Shown one piece after another: positions 12,233 to 16,038 of a stretch of DNA of 34,956 bases. The stretch is from Candidatus Rokuibacteriota bacterium (GTDB lineage: Bacteria > Methylomirabilota > Methylomirabilia > Rokubacteriales > CSP1-6). The stretch lies in the NCBI GenBank assembly GCA_003220475.1, contig QHSO01000067.1, forward strand, positions 1 to 34,956, written 5' to 3'. The position numbers and the translations under genes are program-made. The notes under the pieces were generated by a model, which was not told where the DNA came from, did not search any database, and saw nothing but the letters and a program-made list of their open reading frames with translations. Position 1 is the first letter of the stretch. Each line of letters opens with the position of its first letter.

Positions 12233-13285
12233 ATGGCCGTCGAATTCAAGGATTACTATCGGATCCTGGGCGTCGATCGGAAGGCCGACGACAAGACGAT
12301 CAAGTCCGCCTACCGGAAGCTCGCCCGGAAGTACCACCCCGACGTCAACAAAGGTCAGGACGCGAGCTTCAAAGAGATCAACGAAGCGTACGAGGTTCTG
12401 TCGGATCCCGAGAAGCGACGGCGATACGACACCCTCGGTCCCGACTGGCAGCGCTACACGCAGCAGGCCACGGGTCAACAGCCCGGTGGCTTCACGGTGG
12501 AGTACGGCGACGCCGGAGACTTTTCTGAATTCTTCCGCACGATCTTCGGTGATCTCGGCGCCCGCATGGGCGGCGCCGGCCAGGCAACGGGCAGCCGCGT
12601 GGGATTTGGGCGCGGCGGCTTCGAAGATCTCCTCGGCGGTGGGATGGGCCGGGGCACCCGCCGCCGACGCGGCGAAGACGTTCAGGCAGGGATCGAGATC
12701 ACGCTGGACGAGGCGTTTCACGGCACCCGCAAGTCGCTCGCGCTCGAGATGGACGAGCCGTGTGCAACATGCCAGGGCAGCGGCAACGTCGGCGGGAAGC
12801 CGTGCGCGTCGTGCCACGGTACGGGCTGGCAGCGCGCGCGGCGCGACGTCGACGTCCGAATCCCCGCCGGTGTCCGCACCGGTCAAAAGGTGCGCGTCTC
12901 CGGTGAGGGCGGCGGCGGCGCGGACGGCCGCGGCGACCTCTATCTCGTCGTTTCGGTCGCGCCGCATCCGCAGTTCGAGCGCAAGGGGGACGACATCCAC
13001 GTCACGCTGCCGATCACCGCACCCGAGGCCGCGCTGGGCGCGACGATCGAGGTGCCGACGCTTCGCGGCAAGGTCTCGATGAAGATTCCGCCGGCGACGT
13101 CGAGCGGTCGCACGTTCCGCCTGCCGGGCTACGGGATGCCACGCGTGAAGGGCGGTGGCGCCGGCGACGAGCTGGTGACCGTTCGGATCATGATGCCGGC
13201 CGAGCTGACGGCCGCCGAAAAAGAACTCTACGAGCGCCTGCGCGCGCTCCGGACCGATTCCCCGCGGGGGTACTCCCATGGATAA
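12233..13285 (+). CDS. DnaJ/CbpA-like co-chaperone with half zinc finger
   Basis: The 350-residue Hsp40 presents substrates to Hsp70 and works with ClpB in disaggregation. The J domain (residues 6-68) has the HPD triad at 35-37. A Gly/aromatic region (85-150) follows. The zinc region holds only two CxxCxGxG repeats (Cys177/180 and Cys191/194) where classical DnaJ has four, so at most one zinc centre can form. Two C-terminal beta domains follow (residues 198-330). The gene directly follows a HAIR operator and promoter and is 152 bases before clpB, which suggests heat-shock control of both. The final residues (DSPRGYSHG) overlap a small repeat-borne reading frame. Confidence 0.92.
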   Translation: MAVEFKDYYRILGVDRKADDKTIKSAYRKLARKYHPDVNKGQDASFKEINEAYEVLSDPEKRRRYDTLGPDWQRYTQQATGQQPGGFTVEYGDAGDFSEFFRTIFGDLGARMGGAGQATGSRVGFGRGGFEDLLGGGMGRGTRRRRGEDVQAGIEITLDEAFHGTRKSLALEMDEPCATCQGSGNVGGKPCASCHGTGWQRARRDVDVRIPAGVRTGQKVRVSGEGGGGADGRGDLYLVVSVAPHPQFERKGDDIHVTLPITAPEAALGATIEVPTLRGKVSMKIPPATSSGRTFRLPGYGMPRVKGGGAGDELVTVRIMMPAELTAAEKELYERLRALRTDSPRGYSHG

Positions 13286-13355
13286 CAGACGGCGCGCGTC
13301 GATTCGCCGACCGTCGAGCCCCGGAGCCCGGCGCAGGGGCTCCGACGGCACATAG
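13278..13355 (+). CDS. Arg-rich micro-ORF 1 in repeat copy 1 (25 codons)
   Basis: An ATG at 13278 overlaps the dnaJ end in another frame and opens a 25-codon frame (begins MDNRRRAS, contains RRPSSPGARRRGSDG, stops TAG). A near-identical frame occurs in repeat copy 2. A GGGGG run lies about eight bases upstream, but no good ribosome site is seen. Translation is unproven; the frame may be chance in a palindromic element. Confidence 0.2.
   Translation: MDNRRRASIRRPSSPGARRRGSDGT
13288..13350. repeat. 63-bp direct repeat, copy 1, with internal hairpin
   Basis: First of two copies spaced 73 bases apart, 61 of 63 positions identical. Each contains GAGCCCC ... GGGGCTC (here 13316-13322 and 13336-13342). 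The flanking CCGTC / GACGG extends the stem to 12 bp with one bulged base. Confidence 0.9.
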
Positions 13356-13356
13356 G

Positions 13357-13428
13357 ATGAGACGGCGCGCAACGATTCGCCGACCGTCGAGCCCCGGAGC
13401 CCGGCGCAGGGGCTCCGACGGCAAATAA
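13357..13428 (+). CDS. Arg-rich micro-ORF 2 in repeat copy 2 (23 codons)
   Basis: The ATG at 13357 begins one base after the TAG of micro-ORF 1 and gives MRRRATIRRPSSPGARRRG..., stopping TAA at 13426. It matches micro-ORF 1 except for the first residues, one Ser/Thr change and the last residue. The stop lies just before the clpB ribosome site, so translation could couple to clpB. Existence of the peptide is unproven. Confidence 0.2.
   Translation: MRRRATIRRPSSPGARRRGSDGK
13361..13423. repeat. 63-bp direct repeat, copy 2, with internal hairpin
   Basis: Second copy, differing from the first only at 13371-13372 (AA for GT). It carries the same bulged 12-bp stem and ends 14 bases before the clpB start. 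Together the copies fill nearly the whole dnaJ-clpB gap. Confidence 0.9.
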
Positions 13429-13437
13429 AGGAGAGCG

Positions 13438-16038
<2,601 letters not shown>

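Follow-up and report, generated by a model that had tools for sequence, protein, structure and literature searches.

What a pair of near-identical repeats is doing in the gap between dnaJ and clpB is the question raised by this locus, which forms part of a 34,956-nucleotide stretch of DNA (the window) from a Candidatus Rokuibacteriota bacterium. The upstream cistron, dnaJ, is an open reading frame on the plus strand at 12233..13285 (NCBIfam DnaJ_bact, E 2e-94, under the curated cut-off), and the downstream cistron, clpB, occupies 13438..16038 on the same strand (NCBIfam chaperone_ClpB, 1374 bits against a cut-off of 1232). An initial annotation, made from the window alone, pointed to twin repeats here and offered a mobile palindrome, an mRNA device and leader peptides among the possible explanations.

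The repeats between dnaJ and clpB

The two repeats lie in register on the plus strand at 13287-13354 and 13360-13427, spaced 73 nt apart and 96% identical over 68 nt with three differences, much as the initial annotation had them (61 of 63 positions identical at the same spacing). Each belongs to a tandem unit made up of a 5′ flank plus the element, the first unit spanning 13287..13359 and the second running from 13360. Scored with a 53-position model (R1), the full element copies fall at 13301..13353 (73.8 bits, E 2.4e-16) and 13374..13426 (76.4 bits, E 4.6e-17); the window holds no copies beyond this pair. The bulged 12-bp hairpin described for each copy was recovered, with a single bulged C in the stem and an apical purine-rich internal loop. 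In copy 1 the hairpin (13311..13348, seen by RNAalifold, by covariation and in the single-copy fold) comprises an outer helix CCGTCG/CGACGG (13311-13316 with 13343-13348), the bulged C (13342), an inner helix AGCCCC/GGGGCT (13317-13322 with 13336-13341), the internal loop GGA/GCA (13323-13325 / 13333-13335) and a 2-bp tip (13326-13327 with 13331-13332). Copy 2 repeats this layout at 13384..13421, offset by 73 nt. A single copy folds at -25.8 kcal/mol, a value equalled in 2-4 of 200 shuffles. From copy 2 to the clpB start, at 13427..13437 on the plus strand, an A-rich tail and a Shine-Dalgarno-like AAAGGAG can be read from the sequence.

Copy 1 together with its own 5′ flank also folds into an alternative hairpin (13288-13315) that sequesters CCGTC of the main stem, and the flank motif GACGGCSCGC is present in all five copies at the dnaJ-clpB junction in three species, which makes a local switch possible at this junction.

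Both of the small ATG frames to which attention had been drawn are there, on the plus strand. Micro-ORF 1 (13278..13355, MDNRRRASIRRPSSPGARRRGSDGT and a stop) starts inside dnaJ and overlaps its stop codon at 13283-13285, micro-ORF 2 (13357..13428, MRRRATIRRPSSPGARRRGSDGK and a stop) begins one base past the first stop, and clpB starts at 13438, nine bases past the second. We judge both frames to be incidental.

Within the gap between dnaJ and clpB, the element is found in three congeners only, with two copies in G000 and G001 and one in G002. In 25 relatives from outside the genus in which clpB could be located (at two further relative loci there was no clpB on the contig), the gap measures -4 to 35 nt and holds no gene in 20, and consists of 70-157 nt of other sequence in five; on the strength of the 20 geneless gaps we rejected the suggestion that the repeats stand in the place of hspR, which occupies this position in some HspR-controlled operons. 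At three of the relatives' loci (L041, L044 and L046) the gap carries 102-157 nt of unrelated sequence, perhaps further repeats. Nor is the pair an obvious assembly duplication, since in a congener this junction holds a pair of its own that differs from the one in the window (L052/L136). No Rfam covariance model matched at the gathering score across the window, or up to E 1 in 13240-13460, and a known Rfam RNA family was discarded as a candidate for that reason.

Distribution and structure of the family

With a 73-nt query, matches at E <0.001 came up at two dozen positions of the genome itself, and many more matches in congeners. A covariance model based on an alignment of 67 copies (A1) put the number of full copies in the genome at 31, all scoring at least 63 bits, with a drop to 45 bits for the next match. 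The twin repeats, two of these 31, are thus two neighbouring copies of a dispersed palindromic family, the existence of which the initial annotation had proposed to check by just such a search. Matches number 35, 35 and 40 in the three genomes of the genus (G000, G001 and G002), 17 in G006 and 0-10 in the other family genomes. The element is present in 36 of 57 family genomes, with no match in 21 (all are draft MAGs, in which an absent gene or copy may mean missing sequence), and at a stricter threshold applied to 95 genomes of the phylum it matches 34 of the 57 family members against one, weakly, of 38 others. That this is a dispersed palindromic repeat is near certain; apart from the one weak match, it was confined to a single Rokuibacteriota family, whose members are uncultured bacteria of soil. 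Neither an exact pattern search of viral_contigs nor blastn against plasmids and phages gave a match to the element, and a phage or plasmid vehicle was rejected on this basis.

The core consensus reads CGA-CCGTCG-RGCNNC-GGA...GNA-GNNGCY-C-CGACGG-CAAAT, and RNAalifold, unaided, returns the outer helix, the bulged C, the 6-bp inner helix, the internal loop and the 2-bp tip. Hairpin pairing is maintained by compensated changes: 97.5% of the 924 cells of A1 are paired, with changes on both sides in eight of 14 pairs (61 such cells), a result matched by none of 500 shuffles and nowhere near reached by slid versions. Between copies at orthologous junctions, 68 of the stem-pair differences involve a change on each side with a Watson-Crick pair in each copy, whereas 40 lack this, and compensated differences are found at 12 of 23 multi-genome junctions. 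The dnaJ-clpB junction is itself such a case within the genus, the inner stem being AGCCCC/GGGGCT in the window and GGCACC/GGTGCC in G001 and G002. Unpaired positions are also conserved, the bulge being C in 140 of 143 copies, the purines of GGA opposite GNA being almost invariant across the same 143, and the CGA at the foot having its C in 140, its G in 143 and its A in 143 of them. A 5′ extension of the kind seen in GCGGGTT at -14 is not general, with GSGGGT at -14 in only six of 110 upstream flanks.

G-U pairs make up 11 of 1707 stem cells. Di Nocera and colleagues, in the available part of their account, take the frequent G-T pairs of REP stems as speaking for a role at the RNA level (PMC3733652); the near-absence of such pairs from the Rokuibacteriota element is the opposite situation. 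The scarcity of G-U argues against a purely RNA-level constraint and for constraint on DNA form as well, so that DNA-level constraint or propagation has at least some share in it.

At 40 of 118 sites there are two or more units, invariably direct, with no inverted neighbours within 300 nt in the fetched loci. Between units, the spacer copies the flank that lies upstream, at several sites together with the stop codon of the preceding gene. Left-half units number 28, of which 27 have a full copy 3′ to them, and by the cut-offs used there are no right halves. This pattern would fit duplications in which one breakpoint falls close to the tip of the hairpin, as polymerase slippage there could produce, and the tandem copy at dnaJ-clpB may have arisen when flank and element were duplicated together on the spot. 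The loci L138, L143, L148, L157, L163, L182, L216 and L241 carry arrays in which left-half units precede a single full copy at the 3′ end, and never right halves.

Placement and history

Placement was scored in 118 regions from 17 genomes, fetched around the best-scoring matches and thus a subset of all matches; 116 of these sites have a full copy and the two without one were left out, as were loci L189 and L190, which gave no match. Genes were called with a simple ORF picker based on codon usage, for which five genes of the window served as the training set, and some starts are wrong (the dapB-like gene at L203, for example).

The element is nearly always found a short way before a protein gene and in the same orientation as that gene, most often in the short gap of a co-directional pair. 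Among the 116 sites around best-scoring matches, 80 fall between two genes of one direction and share that direction, and a further 17 are in sense with the gene that follows; seven are in sense inside a called ORF, three are antisense inside an ORF and three were left unassigned. With respect to the next gene, 97 sites are sense and six antisense (p 3e-22, a value that overstates the evidence, as do all such p-values here, because kinship among the genomes means that samples are not independent). Co-directional junctions are split 80 to 3 in favour of sense, all six sites in divergent regions are sense to the following gene, and convergent junctions account for one site in 116. The distance from element end to start codon peaks at 4 in the co-directional set, the element ending exactly 3 nt ahead of the start in 14 of the 80, with a second peak at 16 (11 of the 80). 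A Shine-Dalgarno-like motif between element and start is found at 45 of 57 sites where the interval is 10-60 nt and at none of 31 where it is 9 nt or less.

The flanking genes have no pathway in common. Named junctions that carry the element include rplJ-rplL, gcvT-gcvH, ddl-murG, SDR-SCP2 and nuoI-like to nuoJ-like (the nuo names being read from Pfam domains), as well as positions upstream of pdxS and of rpsT. Copies also lie beside tandem tRNA-Ser genes and one tRNA-Gln (L142, L150, L157 and L172) and are antisense to the tRNAs, in three genomes for tRNA-Ser and in one for tRNA-Gln; few and not independent as they are, these copies suggest that the orientation rule concerns translated genes. 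Some copies are found within coding sequence. One at L194 (G000:C113:2303-2356) is in frame inside a MutS2-like ORF, between its MutS_V and Smr domains, one at L184 is in frame in the C-terminal tail of a Fer4 protein (L163 and L141 look similar by eye), and those at L148, L183 and L202 are in frame at the N-terminus of a hydantoinase-like gene, so named by eye.

Occupancy of orthologous junctions differs within the genus: gcvT-gcvH is occupied in G001 and empty in G000 and G002, and the pdxS junction is occupied in G000 and G001 and empty in G002. The gcvT-gcvH junction also carries the element in G006, G023 and G063. The mobile palindrome among the earlier suggestions is well supported by this and by the dispersal of the family. 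Other junctions are shared, with 13 of 71 junction clusters occupied in at least two genera and eight of nine G006 junctions common to the genus of the window. Cross-genus copies at the same junction are 88.8% alike, against 85.3% for other cross-genus pairs (0 of 1000 permutations). Shared junctions and the higher same-junction identity indicate that some copies have probably been kept in place since the genera split, others having come or gone.

Known systems and possible roles

In the broad sense the element is REP-like, with multiple dispersed hairpin copies that are mainly extragenic, but on the features compared we file it outside both the GTAG and the CGTC families. Like the GTAG REPs, as described in the available parts of PMC2817692 and PMC3733652, it is a short imperfect palindrome, dispersed, mostly intergenic and clustered, with conserved unpaired bases at the 5′ foot. 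That foot, however, is CGA rather than GTAG, and where the GTAG system has inverted pairs (REPIN, BIME), neighbouring copies of the element are direct and never inverted; there are ~31-40 copies, sense-only, on the start side rather than the 3′ side. GTAG REPs also have RAYT transposases, whereas eight element-rich genomes with at least three element matches each (G000, G001, G002, G006, G010, G013, G018 and G023) gave no match to Y1_Tnp, and RAYT-driven mobility was rejected for that reason. Six family genomes that do have Y1_Tnp (G004, G008, G011, G012, G020 and G022) hold 0-2 element matches.

The CGTC-tagged REPs, as far as the available text of PMC3733652 goes, are likewise chromosomal palindromic repeats containing CGTC, and no dedicated transposase is known for them; for the element the search covered Y1_Tnp alone, with none in the eight element-rich genomes. 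In those REPs, however, CGTC is an unpaired terminal tag, whereas here it is paired inside the stem, and the stem is 8-9 bp as against 12 bp with a bulge, the loops differing too. Head-to-head dimers predominate among them and head-to-tail dimers are negligible, whereas all neighbours here are head-to-tail, and they are found close to 3′ ends and between unidirectional and convergent genes, whereas the element is start-side. According to the same source, Rickettsia palindromic elements are tolerated in frame inside coding genes, as is this one, although its in-ORF sense sites are a small minority (7 of 116) and RPE-1 inserts are longer. Another parallel is the E. coli intercistronic REP cited in PMC12306157, also a hairpin between cistrons with a proposed role in mRNA stability, but E. 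coli REPs are 3′-terminal or intergenic, whereas for the element the convergent class is almost absent and sense orientation nearly fixed. No description of such a repeat family in Rokubacteria was found in the available portions of the literature searched.

The sense bias, the divergent sites and the persistence of copies point to an RNA function for the hairpin, so that the mRNA device among the earlier suggestions is favoured as far as orientation goes, its function being a matter of inference. The whole statement that we prefer, namely that a REP-like mobile palindrome acts as a start-side mRNA hairpin on the downstream cistron, could equally well prove right or wrong. The element would have been moved between sites enzymatically. 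In the dnaJ-clpB mRNA, a stable hairpin immediately before the ribosome-binding site of clpB would set the two cistrons apart, shielding the clpB start region from upstream sequence, protecting the 5′ end of a processed clpB message, or both, and in this way clpB output would be set relative to dnaJ. With no match in 21 of 57 family genomes, such patchy occupancy implies that any function is dispensable. Several observations weigh against the start-side hairpin: the in-frame copies in coding sequence show sites where a leader function is impossible, insertion into short gaps would by itself place the element near a start, so that nearness proves little, and the flanking genes share no pathway, with the tRNA copies antisense.

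The strongest rival is a REP-like element, selfish or neutral, that serves no purpose in its host, inserts preferentially into short intercistronic gaps and is purged by selection where it is antisense or damages expression. Patchy occupancy that differs even within the genus, flanking genes without a common function, in-frame insertions in coding genes and the hot spot for local duplications are all as such an element would have them; copies that persist at the same junctions across genera, compensated changes at orthologous junctions and an extreme sense bias that extends to divergent regions are not, and we regard this reading as plausible but somewhat doubtful. If the DNA form were what matters, as a protein-binding site, a cruciform or a single-strand transposition substrate dependent on Watson-Crick arms and the CGACCGTCG half-palindrome, the scarcity of G-U pairs and the near-invariant CGA and bulged C would follow, but the sense bias would be unexplained by this alone and no candidate proteins were identified, which leaves it improbable.

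It is very improbable that the hairpin stabilises or terminates the dnaJ message from the 3′ side, a role that has been proposed for enterobacterial REPs, even though it folds stably close behind the dnaJ stop: convergent sites are almost lacking, the six divergent sites have no upstream sense gene, and no T run of an intrinsic terminator follows the GC hairpin, the 3′ flank being CAAATAAAGGAG or similar. In favour of Arg-rich leader peptides or coupled micro-ORFs, dnaJ-clpB has two complete frames, and the congeners' gaps contain readable short ATG frames as well, but the consensus has no stops in any of its three sense frames, which are open by composition in 133, 137 and 128 of 137 copies. 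The frame singled out by the initial annotation lacks an ATG in 98 of the 137, and 24 copies have an ATG frame no longer than 40 aa; a conserved start, frame and peptide, as expected of a leader-peptide attenuator, were not found among these copies. Between the window and G002/G001 the dnaJ-clpB peptide has five changed codons against one or two silent ones, with stem pairs retained. We therefore rejected leader peptides, which have next to no chance of being the explanation; the many copies without a conserved frame are what the annotation itself had said would speak against a coding role. From the frame statistics and the unconserved peptide, the micro-ORFs are best read as a by-product of the element.

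A stronger form of the start-side hairpin, in which a mobile hairpin that punctuates operons spreads through genomes but survives only where it reads in sense before a translated cistron, there serving the start region as a movable insulator or 5′ stabiliser, is tentative and on balance unlikely. Were it true, a repeat family would rewire stoichiometry inside operons such as rplJ-rplL, gcvT-gcvH, dnaJ-clpB and ddl-murG, and the antisense placement between tRNA genes would tie the orientation rule to translation, not merely to transcription. The REP families compared in the available text of PMC3733652 lie near 3′ ends and between unidirectional or convergent genes; a start-side palindrome in near-fixed sense orientation, which recurs at matching operon junctions in different genera with no RAYT in the element-rich genomes searched, contrasts with them. 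Occupied and empty orthologous junctions provide a natural test set for the long-standing question of a regulatory role for REP-like palindromes in operons, and for an uncultured group the element provides a repeat family that can be searched for.

A second dispersed palindromic repeat (TGCGAGCCGCAGGCCGTCGCGGGGCTGGGGCCCCGCC...) was seen in the sister genus g4 (L047, L048, L308 and L314-L333, in G005, G026 and G061). It is often preceded by a GTAG whose TAG is the upstream stop codon, it has 47 matches in G026, and in g4 it too occupies the dnaJ-clpB gap. In a small set of 23 loci, of which L047 and L308 are one place, its co-directional sites are 13 sense and five antisense, against 80 and three for the element (Fisher p 0.004).
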